From IMG/VR virus record IMGVR_UViG_3300030012_002261, positions 1 through 24,293 of that record: a stretch of DNA of 24,293 bases; one strand, 5' to 3'. How positions within the stretch are numbered: the stretch's first letter is position 1; each line of letters starts with the position of its first letter. The translations under genes were made by a program, and so were the position numbers. This DNA is from a virus. Below, piece by piece: positions 3,153 through 21,854 of this stretch. The notes under the pieces are model-generated. The model made no database searches and was not told the DNA's origin. It worked only from the letters and a program-made list of their open reading frames with translations.

Positions 3153-3221
3153 ATGCCGAGTTATATGTACAAAAACAAAAAGAAAAAGACTAAAAAGACT
3201 AAACGTAGAAAGAAGAAGTGA
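3153..3221 (+). CDS. Ultra-short polybasic peptide (22 aa)
   Basis: A 22-codon frame with a near-perfect ribosome binding site (AGGAGGAA) five to ten bases before the ATG. Thirteen of its 22 residues are Lys or Arg, and the peptide ends KKKTKKTKRRKKK. Its stop at 3219-3221 lies one base before the ATG of the next gene, so the spacing fits a real cistron in a packed operon. No family is recognised. The charge suggests binding to DNA, RNA or an acidic capsid surface, but that is inference. It could also be only a leader whose translation couples the next gene. Confidence 0.6.
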   Translation: MPSYMYKNKKKKTKKTKRRKKK

Positions 3222-3222
3222 A

Positions 3223-3480
3223 ATGGCTAAATACAAAGGTAGAACAGTTCGTTTGAATAAGCCAAGTCGTATTAGAAAAGGTCAAACAAGTTATGGAAGA
3301 AAAAAGTTCCAAGTCTTTGTAAATGATGGTGGAAGAACTAAAAGAGTAACTTTTGGCGACCCTAATATGAGAATTAAGAAATCTAGTCCTGCTAGACGTA
3401 GATCATTTAGAGCAAGACATAGATGTGCAACAGCAAAAGATAAAACAACAGCAAGATATTGGTCTTGCAAAATGTGGTAG
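3223..3480 (+). CDS. Small basic protein with conserved-looking Cys/Trp C-terminus (85 aa)
   Basis: A strongly basic 85-residue protein. The N-terminal half (MAKYKGRTVRLNKPSRIRKG) carries many Lys and Arg. The C-terminal 25 residues contain an SFRARHRC stretch, then Cys68, Cys82 and two Trp residues, finishing WSCKMW. From memory, marine phage genomes often carry small uncharacterised proteins with a similar KSFRARH...ARYWSC ending; I could not check this by search. The ribosome binding site is weak (GAAGAAGTGAA), so translation may depend on the 22-residue peptide ending just upstream. A role as an internal capsid or DNA-associated protein is a guess from charge and context. Confidence 0.75.
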   Translation: MAKYKGRTVRLNKPSRIRKGQTSYGRKKFQVFVNDGGRTKRVTFGDPNMRIKKSSPARRRSFRARHRCATAKDKTTARYWSCKMW

Positions 3481-5098: not shown

Positions 5099-6117
5099 TG
5101 GCTATTTCAACAGCAGCACACTCGCCAAAAGAATTTCAGTTTTTAATAGCAGAACAAGACGCTTTTGGCACAATCGAAGCAGGTGGTGGTAACGCTTATC
5201 ACGCTTTAGATGTTGATTCAGTAGGTACACCATCTTTAAATCCAACACAAGTATTGGACGTAAGAAATGGTAGTAGAGTATTACAAAAAGAAGATTTCTT
5301 TCAAGATGTAAGAGCATCAGTAAAGGAATTATCAGTATCAGGAACAGCAACAACTAATGCTTTAGATATGTTATTAGAGAATATTACAGGCGAAGCAGAA
5401 GGTTCAGCAAGTAGTATTTATTCTTTTGCGTCTAATCAAGCTACAACAAATGTTGGTTCAGGTGATTCTAGTCAAGCAGGAACATTACTATCAATAGTAA
5501 TTAAATCTGCTTTTGGAACAAATGCTGATATGGCGTTTAAAGATTGTGTATGTACATCTTTAACATTAAATGCTGATACAGGTACAGAGGGTGGTAGAGT
5601 TAAGTTTTCTGCTACATTCCAAACTGGCTCAACAGTTGAAGATTTAACAGACGCAGCAACAACAGTAGACACAACTTTTGCAGCTTCTGAAAATTATTTT
5701 ATGACTAATTTTGTAGCAGGATATAGACAAGTATATGGTGTTGCAGACTTAGTTATGAGTTCATTTTCTATGACTATGGAAAACCCTGCTACATTTTCTG
5801 GTGTTACATCATCAGGATATGAAGTTATATCAAGAGCAGGTGAATTTTCTGTAACATTAGATGCTACAGTTAAATACGATGACAAAACTGAAGATTTCTT
5901 TGAGAAGTTTAATAATCAAACACAACAAGGTGCTACAGCAGCACAAGCTACATTATTAAATCATCAAAGTGGTTTAGCAGCAGATAATTTTGGTATTAGT
6001 ATTCCAAAAACAGTATTAACTAATGTTGCATTTAATGAAGCAGATGTTATGATGTTAGACTTATCTGTTAAAGGTGTTGGCGATGGATCTAACGCTTTAG
6101 TAGAAGTTGCTTGTTAA
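5098..6117 (+). CDS. Major tail protein (tail tube subunit)
   Basis: A 339-residue protein starting inside the upstream stop. It lies right before the frameshifted tail-assembly chaperone and the tape measure, the classic place for the tail-tube gene. The composition is Ala/Thr/Ser/Gly rich with many beta strands. It has a tail-tube-like pattern: an N-terminal extension, a strand-rich core (VKELSVSGTATTNALDMLL), and later FSVTLDATVKYD and the closing LDLSVKGVGDGSNALVEVAC. Hexamer rings of such proteins stack to make the DNA conduit. It is longer than a minimal tube protein (about 200 residues), so an added surface domain is possible. Gene order is the strongest evidence. Confidence 0.7.
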   Translation: MAISTAAHSPKEFQFLIAEQDAFGTIEAGGGNAYHALDVDSVGTPSLNPTQVLDVRNGSRVLQKEDFFQDVRASVKELSVSGTATTNALDMLLENITGEAEGSASSIYSFASNQATTNVGSGDSSQAGTLLSIVIKSAFGTNADMAFKDCVCTSLTLNADTGTEGGRVKFSATFQTGSTVEDLTDAATTVDTTFAASENYFMTNFVAGYRQVYGVADLVMSSFSMTMENPATFSGVTSSGYEVISRAGEFSVTLDATVKYDDKTEDFFEKFNNQTQQGATAAQATLLNHQSGLAADNFGISIPKTVLTNVAFNEADVMMLDLSVKGVGDGSNALVEVAC

Positions 6118-6137
6118 TTAAAATAAAGGAATAAACA

Positions 6138-6419
6138 ATGGAATTTAAACTTGAATCTGGTAATAAGATTAAGTTAAAAGATGTATCTATAGATGAGAGA
6201 GATGAACTTCTTGATTCAGTAGAGTATCAATATGATGAAAAAGGTAATCCTAAAGGTATGAAGATGATGAATAGTACGATTACTAAATGGTTACGAATTT
6301 GTATTGACGGCGATACATCTGATAAGTTTCTAAAAACACTTACATTAAAAGATAGAACTGATATTTTTGTTAAAATGCAGGAGTATCTTTTAGTGGGGGA
6401 AGAGAAAGCCTCCAAGTAG
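6138..6419 (+). CDS. Tail assembly chaperone, short form (gpG-like)
   Basis: A 93-residue acidic and basic helical protein, ribosome binding site AAAGGA nine bases before the ATG. It sits between the tail tube and the tape measure, where siphoviruses encode the gpG chaperone that coats the tape measure during assembly. The sequence has helices around SIDERDELLDSVEYQYDE and TITKWLRICIDGD. The frame ends at TAG 6417-6419, just after a GGGGG slippery run, and the -1 frame continues into the long form described separately. Ribosomes that do not slip make this product, normally the majority. Confidence 0.8.
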   Translation: MEFKLESGNKIKLKDVSIDERDELLDSVEYQYDEKGNPKGMKMMNSTITKWLRICIDGDTSDKFLKTLTLKDRTDIFVKMQEYLLVGEEKASK

Positions 6420-6850
6420 AGCTGACTATATTGTCTGACGGCTGTGGAGGCTGTTCTTATTGTGAATTTCCATACGAAGCACAGTTACCTGTAAAGACGG
6501 AAAACGGATACGAAACACGAGAGTTTGAATCACAAGATGATGTTTGGGCAGTTATTGAGTTAATTGCCCAAGAAACTAAGAATTTTAACGAAGAAAAGGG
6601 AAAGGATTTTGATGTGGCAAAAAGCATATCTGCACAATTACCTTTCTTTGCGTGTGTAAATCACGTTAGAGATGAGAAGTATATAAAACTTCTTAATCAA
6701 TACATATATTGCACCGAAACAGGCACACCAGCATACTCAGGTAGTTATGGTGAGCAACCTGCAAGATGGGTACAATATTTTTTTATAATTAAAAATGCGA
6801 TGGCGAAAAAGAGTAAAATGATACAAGAGAAAGCGAAAAAAGATGTCTGA
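6138..6850 (+). CDS. Tail assembly chaperone, frameshifted long form (gpGT-like)
   Basis: The predicted -1 frameshift fusion has about 237 residues: 87 from the zero frame up to GGG 6396-6398, then 150 from the -1 frame to TGA 6848-6850. The -1 frame is closed upstream by TAA 6371-6373, so slippage must occur between 6374 and 6419. The alternative independent start for the second part, TTG at 6431, has no visible ribosome binding site. The second part has a Cys cluster (CGGCSYC) at its junction and ends in helices. Its end overlaps the tape-measure start by eight bases. In lambda the T domain brings in tail-tube subunits; that role is inferred here by analogy. Confidence 0.75.
6395..6452 (+). 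promoter_or_regulatory. Programmed -1 ribosomal frameshift signal
   Basis: In zero frame the codons read GTG GGG GAA with a run of five G at 6395-6399, so a GGG-paired tRNA can re-pair with GGG one base back. After a spacer of about five bases (6402-6406) comes a perfect 7-bp stem, AGCCTCC 6407-6413 with GGAGGCT 6446-6452. Its loop can form an inner GAC/GTC pairing (6424-6426 with 6433-6435). Slippery run, short spacer and stem are the standard layout for -1 frameshifting in tail chaperone genes. The A-site codon does not re-pair perfectly, so slippage is mainly on the P-site GGG. Confidence 0.75.
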
Positions 6851-9002
6851 TATTATCGTAAAGTTTAAACCAATGGGTCAAAAACAACTCATTGAAGCTA
6901 TTAAAAAATTAGAAACAGCACAAGGTAAAGCGACAGCAGCTACAAAGAAAAATAGGTTAGAAACTGGTAGGTTGCGTGGCAGTATGTCAGGATTAGAAAA
7001 AAGTTTCGCTACTATTCGTTCAAATATGTTGCTTTATAGTTTTGCAATGAGTTTAGGTATCAGGCAAATGGGTTTATTTGCACAACAAGCAGCCAAAATA
7101 CAAACTATGGAAAAAGCCTTTGATAATCTTACTGGAGGTGCAGATAATGCAACCATAGCTATAAATAAATTAAGACAAGCAACTGATGGCACTATTTCAG
7201 ATTTTCATTTATTTCAACAAGCTAACAACGCTATGATTCTTGGTTTGAGTACAAACTCTGATGAAATGGCACAAATGTTTGATATGGCACAAAGATTAGG
7301 TGATGCTTTAGGTAGAGATGTCAAAACTTCAATAGAATCTTTAGTTACTGGTATCGGTCGTCAATCAAGACTGATGCTTGACAACATTGGTATTATTGTA
7401 AAAGCAGATGATGCTTATAGAAGCTATGCAGCAGAAATAGGTAAAACGGCTGATACATTAACTCAATCTGAAAAAAAACAAGCATTTATGAACGCTGCTT
7501 TAGATGCAGCAAGAGAAAAATTAGAATCTTTACCACAAGAAGTAATAACAGCAGATAAAAAGTTTCAACAATTTTCTGCTTCAATAGAAAATTTACAAAA
7601 AACTATTGGAGATACTTTATTACCAGACGTTTTAGATTTAACTGTTGCTATTACTGATATGGCAAATGCTTTTGATGCTGAAAGAGCTCAAGCATACGCA
7701 ACTGTTATAAAAGTAGGTTTAGTAGGAGGTATGGTTTTATATGCTGAAGCTGTTATGAAAGCTGTAATAGCACAAAAAATGTTAGGGTGGCCTTTATTAA
7801 TTGGTACTATAGTTACTATGGCATCTGAATTGGTGGTGTTAAGTGGAATTTTTGAAGGAGCAGGGGATTCTGTAAATAAAGCTGAACAATCAACTTCTGC
7901 TTATTTAAAAAGTTTAGTTAGTATGAAAAAAGAAGATATTGTTAAAGAACTTGACAAACAACAAAAATCACAATCAGATTTAAACAAACAATTAAAAGAT
8001 AGAGGTATTAATACAAAAGAAACCACAAATTTAGATTTAATAGCTAAACAAATTATAGATGGCCAAACAACATCAATTCAAGATAATGTATTTGTGTATC
8101 AAAATTTAAACAAACAAAAAGACCAATTTAATAAAGTTACTAAAGAAAGTAATGCAGATTTAGCATTAAATAAACAAGAGGTTGATAGTAATGTTGAAAC
8201 TTTAACAGAATATCTTGAAATATTAGAGGCTGGATTTGATACTGTTCAATCTTATACAGATTCTCAAGGAAATGCTTTAGAAATGTATGGAAAAACAAGA
8301 GAATCACAAAAAGAAACTTTAGATGCTCAAATGATAGAGCTTGAAAATTTACTTAAATTAGAAAAAGGTAATAAAGAATATGTTGCTGTATTAGAAATGC
8401 TTAAAAATAAAAAAGCAGCTATTTTACAAGCAGAATTACAAGCACAATTAAAAACATATTCAAGAATGGCTCAAGGCATAGCCACAGTAGCTGATGCTAT
8501 GGGAGCAGGAGCAAAAGAAGTTGCAGCTATACAAGCAGCAGGTGCTTTAGTTGATGCGTTTGCTGGTGCTTCAGCAGCAAGATTTAATGCTAACAAAGCT
8601 AATTTGCCTGTTCCAATTCCTGGTTTAATGTATGCTATTGAACTTGCAGCAGGATTAGCTAATGCAAGAGCTGTTGCTATGGCTGCTAATAAAGTAGGTG
8701 GAGGAGCTTCTGGTGCTGGTGGAGTATACGGAAAATTTGAACAAGGTGGTTATGTTGGTGGTAGACCACACTCACAAGGTGGTACTATTATAGAAGCAGA
8801 ACGTGGCGAGTTTGTAATGAGTAGAAATGCAGTAGAATCTATCGGCTTAGAAACACTTAACCAAATGAATCAAACAGGTGGTGGTGGAAACATCAATGTA
8901 AACGTATCAGGTAATGTTTTAACACAAGATTTTGTAGAAGGTGAACTTGCAGAATCAATTAAAGAAGCTGTCCGTAGAGGTAGCGATTTTGGTATCGGTT
9001 AA
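6843..9002 (+). CDS. Tail tape measure protein (719 aa)
   Basis: Starts eight bases inside the end of the frameshifted chaperone, the usual place for this gene. Long helical stretches dominate. A hydrophobic segment lies at about residues 288-338 (VGLVGGMVLYAEAVMKAVIA, then WPLLIGTIVTMASELVVLSG), as expected for a tape measure that is later ejected into the cell envelope. A coiled-coil-rich region follows (about 365-540). An Ala-rich segment and a Gly-rich C-terminus with FEQGGYVGGRPHSQGG and ERGEFVMSRNAVESIG are typical of tape measure ends. From the usual 0.15 nm per residue, the tail would be about 110 nm, an estimate only. Confidence 0.88.
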   Translation: MSDIIVKFKPMGQKQLIEAIKKLETAQGKATAATKKNRLETGRLRGSMSGLEKSFATIRSNMLLYSFAMSLGIRQMGLFAQQAAKIQTMEKAFDNLTGGADNATIAINKLRQATDGTISDFHLFQQANNAMILGLSTNSDEMAQMFDMAQRLGDALGRDVKTSIESLVTGIGRQSRLMLDNIGIIVKADDAYRSYAAEIGKTADTLTQSEKKQAFMNAALDAAREKLESLPQEVITADKKFQQFSASIENLQKTIGDTLLPDVLDLTVAITDMANAFDAERAQAYATVIKVGLVGGMVLYAEAVMKAVIAQKMLGWPLLIGTIVTMASELVVLSGIFEGAGDSVNKAEQSTSAYLKSLVSMKKEDIVKELDKQQKSQSDLNKQLKDRGINTKETTNLDLIAKQIIDGQTTSIQDNVFVYQNLNKQKDQFNKVTKESNADLALNKQEVDSNVETLTEYLEILEAGFDTVQSYTDSQGNALEMYGKTRESQKETLDAQMIELENLLKLEKGNKEYVAVLEMLKNKKAAILQAELQAQLKTYSRMAQGIATVADAMGAGAKEVAAIQAAGALVDAFAGASAARFNANKANLPVPIPGLMYAIELAAGLANARAVAMAANKVGGGASGAGGVYGKFEQGGYVGGRPHSQGGTIIEAERGEFVMSRNAVESIGLETLNQMNQTGGGGNINVNVSGNVLTQDFVEGELAESIKEAVRRGSDFGIG

Positions 9003-12000
9003 TGCTGACGTTACCTCCTAAATTTAAACAAGCACTAGGTAATGGTACTAGAACGTCTTTATACCCTTTGGTTAGGATATATAAGGGTGTACAGATAGAT
9101 GATCCATTAGATTCGGCAACAGAAGTTATTAATTTATCAATTAAGGAAACAAACATAGGTGGTGAGGCGTATAATGGTTTACTACTTAATAGTCCTTCTA
9201 TTAGCTCAAAAGCAGATATTATAAACAATAAATACACAATTTCGAGTGTATCCCTGTCTATATCAAATGCTCCCTATAATGGCAAGATTTTCTCAGACGA
9301 TATTCCTAGTTTACTTAATGCAGTAGTACAAGTGTATTATGCTGCTAATGGATTAGATAGTTTAGATGATTGTCTTTTAGTCTATACAGGTACTATTAGA
9401 CGTTATAGTCAATCGGCAGAAACTTTAAACCTTACACTAGAAGATCTAACTGAACAAAAACTTAAAACACAAATACCATCTACTTTAATAGATGATGCTG
9501 ATTCTTATACTGATGAACAGTTAGGGCAACCTTATCCTATGGTATATGGATATGTTGATAAATCGCCTGTAATACTTAATAAATTTGATAGTTTGGCTAT
9601 AGATAAGCCTGAGATAGAAATCAAGGGTATATGGTCTAAAATAGCAAAAATAAACTATAAAAATGAATATATGAATAACCAAAATTATCTTATATCTACA
9701 GGATTTTTAAAAGAAAATGCTTTTTTATATATTTATAACAATGCTTATTTACCAATAATGGAAGAAATTCCTAGTTATTTTGGAAGTAGACCTTATGACC
9801 AATTAGATGGTTTTACATATACGTTTGAAAGTAATGTATCGCCAAAAATTAATTTAAATTCTAATAATTTTCTATATGAAGAATATCACGAAGTAACTAC
9901 AGAAGAAGACGGCGAAGAAGTTACTAGAACAGAAGGAAAAGGAAATGTTGGTATTGCCACTCGTATATATAGACCTGTAGTTAAAGTTAGTTTTTTTGCT
10001 AATAATTTAAGCACATACAATAGATTTGAAGATTATTTTGCAGGTTCAACTAATAAGTTTTTTGGTTTTAGTGATGTAAACAATTTAGAAATGAGCAAAA
10101 CAATTAGAAATGCAAGTTTGGAAAGTGATTCAGACCCTGTTGATGAAAACATTAATAATATTCAGTCAAATGCAGATGATTTATATGAAAATAATTGGAA
10201 CGATACTAACGAAGAAGGTTTGTTTAGTTGGTGGAAAACTACTGAACTAAATGATGCTAGTGGTACTGATGATGAAGATGGAATATTTGATGATAAAGAT
10301 TTAAATTGGCAAGGCGAAGGAGTAAACGCACAATTTCCTATAAATTGGATTCAAAACAATGATGATAAATCAGGTATTTGTATGGATTCTCAACTTAGAC
10401 AAGATAAAGAAGGTGGTTCTTATGCTAGATTAGAATTTAATACTGATGTTGCTAGTTTTCCTTGTGTAACTAAAATATTTTATTATATAGATTATTTTGC
10501 TCCTTCAAATATTGATACACAAGTAGGTGATGATATTGAGGCTGAACCTACTGCTTTTTGGGTAGAAAGAAATCTTATAGAAAGAAAACGTAATGATGTT
10601 GATAGATTTCATAAAATTACAGAAAAAAATAATTGGGAAATTAATTACGATGAAGAAGATTGGATAACATATTGTGAAGTTCCTAATGCACAACACGATT
10701 TTGATAGTTCTAATATAAATAATGATTTTAGAGTATCAACTTTAGGTGCTATAAATGATTTAAATGATTATCACAATATTATTTTAAATTTTGGTAGCAC
10801 AGATTCTTACGATAGTATACAATGGGGAGTGCCACAGTTATTAGGTAATACCAATAAAATATCATCTTGTATTGCTAACTTAAAACAATTTTATGTAACT
10901 CAAGACGTATTGGCAACAGAATATACTACACAAGACTATTATGCTAGTATAAAAGGTAGGGTAGATGATAATGAAAATGTTATTTCTAAATCTCAAGATA
11001 TTTTACAAAATATATTAGAAAAAGAATTGAATTTCGGTAAAGATATTGTTATGCCAGAAACAGATGATGATTATATTCATAGCTTTTCTATGAATGAGCA
11101 ACAAGAAGCTAAAAGTGTTATTGAAAATTTATTTAAATCTTCAATTTATATACCTTCTTTTGATAGTACTGGTAATTTTAAAATTATTGATCTTAAACAA
11201 AATATAGAAGATTATGAGCAGTTTGAAACTATAGATAATTTAGACATTATTAAATACTCTTTTGGTCTTACAAAATTAGAAGATGTTAAAAATCAAATCA
11301 ATGTTAAGTACAAAAAAGATTATGGTTCAGGTGATTTTGCCGAAGAAACTACTTATGGTATAGAAGATAACAATGGTAATTTTTTAAATACATTAGACGA
11401 ATTAACACAAGAATTAACTCCTGATATGTTATATGAGCTTAGTTACTATGGAATGAAAGACGAAGATGCTAAACTAGAAATAGAATCTGAATACATTAGA
11501 GATAAAGATACAGCAAGAAAACTACAAAGAAGATTATTGATGTGGTATGCTAATCAGCACTTAACAATGAAATTAGATCTTCCTCCTAGTTATATGCACT
11601 TAGAATCAGGTGATTATTTGAGATTTGATGAACTTATAGGTGGTAAACTTGCTTTTGGTTTTGATTACACACAAGAGTTTGTCAAAAATGGACAACTTAT
11701 ATATCCTGTGTTTTTTGTTACTAAGGTAGCAAAATCTTTAAGTAAAGTAAGTTTAGAGTTAGTGCAAGTACATCGTGGCGACTTTGGTATGAATGATGAT
11801 GATTTAGGATTTTACAACATACCTAACCCTTATGAAAGTGATATATATCAAGATGAAGTTATAGATGAAGAAGATACATATTTTGAAGGGTCTTGGTATC
11901 AAGATAACGCAAATTTAAACACAGGTGCAATATCAGCAATAACAAATACAAATTATGAAACAAGTATAGAGTATGAATTGAATCTTGTTTTTGTAAATGC

Positions 12001-16691: not shown

Positions 16692-16942
16692 TATTCATTC
16701 TCCTTTTTTATTATATCTTCTTTCATTTTTTTTATTATTTGTTCTTTGGTAAATACTCCTTCTCCCTTCAAATACCATTTCTCTTTCCTTTTTTCTAACA
16801 CTCTATTATAATCTTGTGCATCTATATCATTCTTCTCGCACAATTTCATATCTTCAATTTTAGGATAAAAGGACATACTAAAACCTTGACGTTTTCCATA
16901 CCTATCTAACCAATCTTCTATGTATGATTTAGTTTTGCTCAT
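16691..16942 (-). CDS. Hypothetical protein sharing a C-terminal module with the gene at 19301 (83 aa)
   Basis: Begins inside an ATGA overlap with the upstream gene. The N-terminus (SYIEDWLDRYGKRQGF) is helical and basic, and the middle is acidic with DIDAQDYNRVLEKR. The C-terminus carries KWYLKGEGVFTKEQIIKK followed by MKEDII. This is close to KWYWKGKGVFKKDELIKK followed by MKEDII in the protein encoded at 19301-19504. The shared module suggests gene duplication or domain shuffling within the early block. No known family is recognised. A peptide-binding or regulatory surface is conceivable from the aromatic WY pair. Confidence 0.65.
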   Translation of the reverse strand: MSKTKSYIEDWLDRYGKRQGFSMSFYPKIEDMKLCEKNDIDAQDYNRVLEKRKEKWYLKGEGVFTKEQIIKKMKEDIIKKENE

Positions 16943-19305: not shown

Positions 19306-19504
19306 TATTAACATCTTTTTTAAAAATACTATTAAGATAATCAAAAAATGAATTTACTCCAAACACATCTTCATCAAGAAAGTATTTATAACCCTTTTCA
19401 CTCGTTTGATTGTCGTTAGAAATTATATCTTCTTTCATTTTTTTTATAAGTTCATCTTTTTTAAATACTCCTTTACCTTTCCAATACCATTTTTGATCAG
19501 TCAT
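19301..19504 (-). CDS. Hypothetical protein with KWY/KMKEDII module (67 aa)
   Basis: I choose ATG 19504, in an ATGA overlap with the upstream stop and after AGGAGA, over the in-frame start six codons earlier. The N-terminal part reads TDQKWYWKGKGVFKKDELIKK then MKEDII, almost the same as the C-terminus of the protein at 16691-16942. The rest is acidic and aromatic (YKYFLDEDVFGVNSFFDYLN), ending in a short basic tail. No known domain is recognised. The repeated module in two early genes suggests duplication of a protein-protein binding segment. Confidence 0.6.
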   Translation of the reverse strand: MTDQKWYWKGKGVFKKDELIKKMKEDIISNDNQTSEKGYKYFLDEDVFGVNSFFDYLNSIFKKDVNN

Positions 19505-21177: not shown

Positions 21178-21363
21178 TTAGTTAACTATAATTTTTTTAT
21201 TGTTATATTTATGAGGTTTGTTCCAAACATTTACAGGTAACATAAAAACGTTATCCCCTGCGTATTGTTTAGATATTTTAAGCATTAATTTTAATGCTTG
21301 TTTTTCAGAAATTGCTTTTTTTGTGAATAAATCACCATATATAGAAGCTACAATATATTTCAT
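21178..21363 (-). CDS. Small hypothetical protein (61 aa)
   Basis: Begins at ATG 21363 after AAGGAATAAAATAAA. The protein (MKYIVASIYGDLFTKKAISE, then QALKLMLKISKQY and a basic end YNNKKIIVN) is predicted strand-helix-helix-strand. No known domain. Its leader lies directly downstream of the predicted hammerhead cleavage site, so its mRNA may start with a 5'-hydroxyl about 31 bases before the ATG. Confidence 0.55.
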   Translation of the reverse strand: MKYIVASIYGDLFTKKAISEKQALKLMLKISKQYAGDNVFMLPVNVWNKPHKYNNKKIIVN

Positions 21364-21388: not shown

Positions 21389-21439
21389 GTCTATGACGGC
21401 TTAATTAAAAGCCGTTTCGCGTTCGCTCATCAGATAGAC
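21389..21439 (-). ncRNA. Type I hammerhead ribozyme
   Basis: Reading the minus strand: stem I GTCTAT 21439-21434 pairs with ATAGAC 21394-21389. Core CTGATGA is at 21433-21427. Stem II is GC/GC (21426-21425 with 21420-21419) closing a GAAC loop. Core GAAA is at 21418-21415. Stem III CGGCTT 21414-21409 pairs with AAGCCG 21402-21397 with a TTAATT loop. UC is at 21396-21395, so the cleavage triplet is GUC. A15.1 (21415) pairs with U16.1 (21396). Cleavage is expected between 21395 and 21394. All core bases are canonical and three stems close in the right order, with stem I open (type I). Stem II is unusually short, about 2 bp. It begins five bases after the upstream gene's stop. Confidence 0.9.
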
Positions 21440-21443
21440 TTAT

Positions 21444-21635
21444 TTATTTTAGATATTTTTTAAATAATTTTTTCATTTCATCATCAGTAAATGCTTGATA
21501 ATTTGGATTAGATAAAATTTTTAATTTTTCGTTAGTGAAATAGTTTTCTGGATATTCATTTAAGCCACCACCTTCAAACGCCTCAATATATAAATCTTCT
21601 AAAGCCATTACTTGTATTTCTTGTTTAATATTCAT
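21444..21635 (-). CDS. First leftward early gene, hypothetical (63 aa)
   Basis: AAGGAAAATAAA precedes ATG 21635, and upstream lies the 543-base divergent region, so this is the first gene of the leftward transcript. The protein is acidic and helical (MNIKQEIQVMALEDLYIEAF, then YPENYFTNEKLKILSNPNYQ) with a basic end (MKKLFKKYLK). No family is recognised. Its TAA at 21446-21444 sits just before the hammerhead ribozyme, so its mRNA would be released with a ribozyme-derived 3' end. Confidence 0.6.
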   Translation of the reverse strand: MNIKQEIQVMALEDLYIEAFEGGGLNEYPENYFTNEKLKILSNPNYQAFTDDEMKKLFKKYLK

Positions 21636-21712: not shown

Positions 21713-21854
21713 AAAAAAAGAATTATTTTCAATTTATTTTAATTTATCGAGAAGAAAAAAGTTTTATTTTATTTTGTAATGTCAATTAAAGGCGTAATAT
21801 CGTGCCGTTATTGATACATTTTATATATATATAGATAAAACAATTAATTAAGTA

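Follow-up and report, generated by a model that had tools for sequence, protein, structure and literature searches.

What is the 51-nt motif that lies between two small genes of a phage operon, and does it belong to those genes or to the junction that separates them? We explored this question in a 24,293-nt stretch of viral DNA (positions 1 to 24,293 of IMG/VR record IMGVR_UViG_3300030012_002261; hereafter the window), which comes from an AT-rich tailed phage encoding TerL, TerS, and a major capsid protein, with a Sak annealing protein in its leftward operon. This operon is presumably early, because it diverges from the structural genes and carries the Sak single-strand-annealing gene. Cultured phages gave no BLAST relative of the motif region, and their terminase matches all fall below 60% identity (31-33% among the matches listed). 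Hammerheads have been known in phages since about 2010-2011, and their purpose is unsettled. We consider it likely that the motif is a functional type I hammerhead ribozyme (HHR) of the leftward early operon, self-cutting after C17 and most likely serving as mRNA punctuation.

Read directly on the minus strand, 21439-21389, the motif runs GTCTAT-CTGATGA-GCGAACGC-GAA-A-CGGCTT(TTAATT)AAGCCG-T-C^ATAGAC, and each element of a type I HHR is present in the correct order (table 1). The core reads C3-U4-G5-A6-N7-G8-A9 and G12-A13-A14; stem I is open and stems II and III are closed by loops, both in the reading and in the fold; in stem III, 21415-21409 pairs with 21402-21396. The NUH triplet is GUC at 21397-21395, and the A15.1-U16.1 pair recurs in 31 of the 31 distinct sequences compared below. 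Folded as a single isolated RNA, the motif gives the exact hammerhead three-way junction (-14.8 kcal/mol, z -3.1). The element at 21389-21439 is a genuine, complete type I HHR in the structural sense, as the original prediction had proposed, and reading, fold, and a model built from relatives only bear this out. The core elements, their order, the strand, and the 6-bp stem I that it listed hold base for base; its coordinates for the cut, 21395|21394 (C17 being 21395), and for an ATG 31 nt downstream (at 21363) are correct; and the seat directly after one gene and before the next is as described, with the preceding stop codon 4 nt before stem I. Stem II, which it called unusually short at about 2 bp, does have 2 bp, but is not unusual, since two pairs are often found there in HHRs (Perreault et al. 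2011; PMC3088659). At the stem II position the relative L141 carries GCGAAUGC.

Table 1. Features of the window ribozyme and its neighbors, and related junction elements. Positions refer to the window unless another contig is named.
Feature	Position	Strand	Basis or remark
Type I hammerhead ribozyme, whole motif	21389..21439	-	Direct reading, fold, independent covariance model (51.9 bits)
Stem I 5' strand, GTCTAT	21434..21439	-	Partner 21389-21394; 6/6 pairs vary on both sides across 31 relatives
Core CUGAUGA (C3-A9)	21427..21433	-	Reading; C3, U4, G5, A6, G8 invariant in alignment A2
Stem II, GC/GC 2 bp with GAAC tetraloop	21419..21426	-	Reading, fold
Core GAA (G12-A13-A14)	21416..21418	-	Reading; invariant in alignment A2
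Stem III, 7 bp (A15.1-U16.1 and CGGCTT/AAGCCG), loop TTAATT	21396..21415	-	Reading, fold, covariation
Predicted cleavage point, 3' of C17 in the GUC triplet	21395/21394	-	Placed from the HHR consensus
Stem I 3' strand, ATAGAC	21389..21394	-	Reading; would begin the downstream mRNA with a fresh 5'-OH
Upstream gene, 63 aa, function not assigned	21444..21635	-	ORF; 4 nt separate its stop codon from stem I
Downstream gene, 61 aa, function not assigned	21178..21363	-	ORF; start codon 31 nt past the cleavage site
HHR array of L097	10.05, 10.69, 11.13, 11.69, 12.22, 14.22, 15.32 kb		HHR ahead of essentially every substantial gene there
Junction elements of L007-L009	L007, 18 sites (e.g. 2704-2760, 3180-3241); L008 and L009, 10 each

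Relatives of this phage abound in IMG/VR, and we sampled 80 loci with a TerL at 75-97% amino acid identity; HHRs were sought with a descriptor scan, a covariance model (R1), and stem-I patterns. They occur in 19 further contigs, and 31 distinct sequences entered the model-fitted alignment A3; a second alignment, A2, was made with MAFFT, the window sequence being excluded. In A2, 95.5% of cells are paired and 80 cells vary on both sides, and the covariation score is 0.718, compared with 0.177 for shuffled controls and no more than 0.107 for slid ones; in A3, standard pairs reach 99.3%, with 126 both-side changes spread over 12 of 14 pairs. Covariation is strong in all three stems. For instance, stem I exists as GTCTAT/ATAGAC, GTTCAA/TTGAAC, GTCCAA/TTGGAC, GTAACT/AGTTAC, and other variants. 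Outside the stems the core is invariant, bar N7 and an A inserted in one of the L137 copies; a further copy from that contig has a U10.1-U11.1 mismatch at the start of stem II. An HHR is carried by nine of the 27 terminase relatives that span 4.5 kb or more of the early side, a lower bound given that the contigs are fragments, and about two thirds have none in the stretch covered. A stem-I-specific pattern run against 85,000 genomes returned ten matches, all due to chance and without stems II and III, and looser viral patterns gave mostly chance matches in coding sequence. In L096 (12890-12966) the stem III loop of an HHR contains AGGAGG, followed by an ATG within the stem, in a frame of only six codons.

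The placement of these copies is strict. None of 33 surveyed HHR sites is spanned by an ORF longer than 60 aa; the copies sit between genes, on the coding strand, and most abut or overlap the preceding stop codon. Where a downstream gene was called, a same-strand start codon lies 21-59 nt beyond the predicted cut for 27 of 28 HHRs, and a ribosome-binding site (RBS) falls in the gap; in the sole exception, a weak L137 hit near 7581, the distance is 97 nt. Copy number varies widely. The window operon has about 20 junctions and a single HHR; L097, with a terminase 88.5% identical to that of the window phage, has seven (table 1), and L137 has five, one of them weak, in a covered stretch holding none of 14 tested window-phage proteins. 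Two of the L137 copies flank an ArdC-like anti-restriction gene (5969-6871; Pfam ArdcN plus zincin peptidase). Just upstream of the first HHR of the L097 array lies a long stretch without a clear gene or an Rfam match (9330-10050); it may be a structured leader RNA that the first ribozyme of the array sets free.

What would follow in the cell, that is, cleavage, the chemistry of the ends, and an effect on expression, we infer as follows. Once the operon is transcribed, the RNA would fold and cut itself after C17 (21395). The 63-aa message would keep a structured 3' end, made of the ribozyme body with a 2',3'-cyclic phosphate, and the downstream part of the operon would gain a short 5'-OH leader that begins close upstream of the RBS, 31 nt from the next start codon. 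In bacteria, 5'-end-dependent mRNA decay starts poorly from a 5'-OH, and exonucleases are impeded by a folded 3' end; separate fates are thus likely for the neighboring messages, and such punctuation would uncouple the stability and translation of the first from those that follow. Most likely, then, the HHR separates the mRNAs of its flanking genes. We tested loop II and the 3' flank for a pseudoknot and rejected it, the Watson-Crick pairing being no better than in mismatched combinations. Nor does the window HHR, with its 2-bp stem II and open stem I, show a visible tertiary contact, and cleavage may therefore be slow at physiological Mg2+. The element is also dispensable, given that it occupies one of about 20 operon junctions and is absent from about two thirds of the relatives covered.

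Could the motif be a chance match, or a decayed and inactive relic? Its scores lie under the Rfam cut-offs, and several chance pairs of CTGATGA...GAAA occur elsewhere in the window genome. The covariance search advised in the original prediction was indeed negative with Rfam, where no family matched at gathering threshold in the window or in eight relatives; the best sub-threshold match of the window HHR was RAGATH-1-hammerhead, at 25.9 bits against a gathering value of 56.3. The same search succeeded with a relatives-only model (R2), built from 21 HHRs of other contigs with the window sequence and its twin left out, which gives the window HHR 51.9 bits (E about 1e-10). Sub-threshold scores of this kind explain why HHR copies are overlooked by standard annotation. 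Moreover, simulated dinucleotide-matched sequence holds no comparable site (stem I of at least 6 bp and stem III of at least 5 bp) in 12.6 Mb searched on both strands, the window HHR is the single site of that stringency in the whole 31,557-base record, and all 51 nt are conserved in a phage that has diverged by about 20% elsewhere. A chance or relic origin is thus very improbable, and the comparative data already contradict chance. A different objection accepts a real, cleaving HHR and takes it mainly for a hitchhiker that recombines between phage junctions, its cutting here bringing no benefit. The L012/L080 phage is 75-88% identical in nucleotides to the window phage over longer aligned stretches; its HHR matches in 51 of 51 nt and has the same place in the operon, yet lies between different, unrelated genes. 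The same stem I recurs in L137, L140, L173, and L174, none of the 14 tested window-genome proteins being found in the stretches covered. Presence is patchy: the L052/L136 junction has an HHR and the homologous window junction, around 20715, has none. The upstream 63-aa gene, whose homologues are confined to L007-L009, is kept there at 79-93% amino acid identity with no HHR after it; relatives of the downstream 61-aa gene were searched for and none was found. Retention of the flanking genes with loss of the core was the outcome that the original prediction regarded as fatal, and for the upstream gene it is literally what these three phages present. It does not refute the ribozyme: an identical HHR between unrelated flanking genes indicates that the element belongs to the junction, not to these genes. 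From such copies, and from the phages that keep the upstream gene without an HHR, the HHR behaves like a portable junction element. Mobility without benefit is nonetheless unlikely, if worth keeping in mind, for the strict placement and orientation, the conserved core with its compensatory changes, and the arrays whose stems II and III have diverged at successive junctions all suggest selection for cutting at junctions.

The phages L007-L009 offer a further reading. Nearly every one of their early-gene junctions has a short variable hairpin, then a conserved GTYTTGAATT (GUYUUGAAU in the RNA), then an RBS (table 1), and the 3' part resembles the cleavage-site side of the L097 HHRs (GTC^TTGAAC). 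This looks like a second, non-hammerhead junction element. As HHRs these sites failed, model R1 finding none and CTGANGA sites being almost absent nearby; a trans-acting HHR was likewise set aside, because the sequence 5' of GUY is variable and closed in its own hairpin. Since a hairpin without the HHR core may suffice at these junctions, the window element might also be mainly a stable intergenic hairpin that protects 3' ends or insulates translation, with cleavage incidental or absent. A plain hairpin needs no catalytic core, however, and the unpaired core is invariant across HHR copies while the stems drift; we regard this explanation as improbable. Returning to self-cleavage as mRNA punctuation, a broader model can be tentatively proposed, to which we give a little less than an even chance: HHRs may serve as interchangeable, gene-by-gene punctuation, a series of ribozymes cutting the early operon to nearly single-gene mRNAs (seven in L097), with modules moving between junctions and lineages and relatives substituting the hairpin-GUYUUGAAU element.

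The window HHR fits the published picture of phage hammerheads, in which a short stem II and clustered cutting are already described (PMC3088659). With the Rfam type I family, RF00163, it shares the CUGANGA/GAAA/NUH core, the three stems, and the open stem I, but differs in its 2-bp stem II and the lack of a stem I loop or bulge; several relatives' copies reach 25-31 bits under that model (best 31.4, against a gathering value of 34), and the window copy was not reported. To RF03152 (RAGATH-1-hammerhead) it aligns in core and stem order across the full model, although its 25.9 bits are far under the gathering threshold and the model's 5' accessory hairpin is not evident. Closest in arrangement are the prophage clusters of Agrobacterium tumefaciens, Azorhizobium, and Clostridium scindens, where multiple HHRs flank single phage genes on one transcript, short stems II are common, and cutting of transcripts into operon- or single-gene mRNAs was proposed (Perreault et al. 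2011; PMC3088659). Native HHR clusters cleave in vitro, and that of A. tumefaciens also in E. coli (PMC3088659). Anti-restriction neighbors occur in both settings, ardA in those clusters and the ArdC-type gene in L137. The present group, on the other hand, consists of different, uncultured phages, shows one conserved stem I sequence common to many copies, and in L097 attains up to seven copies, nearly one per junction. What we add is a phage group with a conserved and portable junction ribozyme in arrays of up to seven, for which we claim no priority, together with a comparison set. It amounts to a natural experiment, in which the ribozyme count of the same operon ranges from none through one to many, a ribozyme of unchanged sequence sits between different genes, and close relatives use another junction element; this natural variation makes the idea of mRNA punctuation directly testable.

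Some further elements accompany these operons. At the operon start, L009 (2560-3010) and L007 (approximately 380-850) have an apparently non-coding leader of several hundred nucleotides. Blocks of it are conserved across both phages, and it ends GGTTATGGGTTAARAAACCGAAACAAGCCC...GGGTGTCAAGTTTTGAAT. In L009, the upstream AATTCAACTGATGA could pair with TTGAATT in a hammerhead-like, off-consensus arrangement; at E <= 1, Rfam returned nothing relevant for L009. On the plus strand of the window, GGCGTAATATCGTGCCGTTATTGA (21779-21817) recurs in L080 with 90% conservation over 39 nt, and L009 has the reverse complement, ACGGCACGATATTGCGCCG, near 2374, upstream of the leftward operon; this element is a probable promoter or operator. 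Finally, an 87-nt stretch is present in the window in two copies, 80% identical (16694-16780 and 19406-19492), and probably derives from duplicated small early genes.
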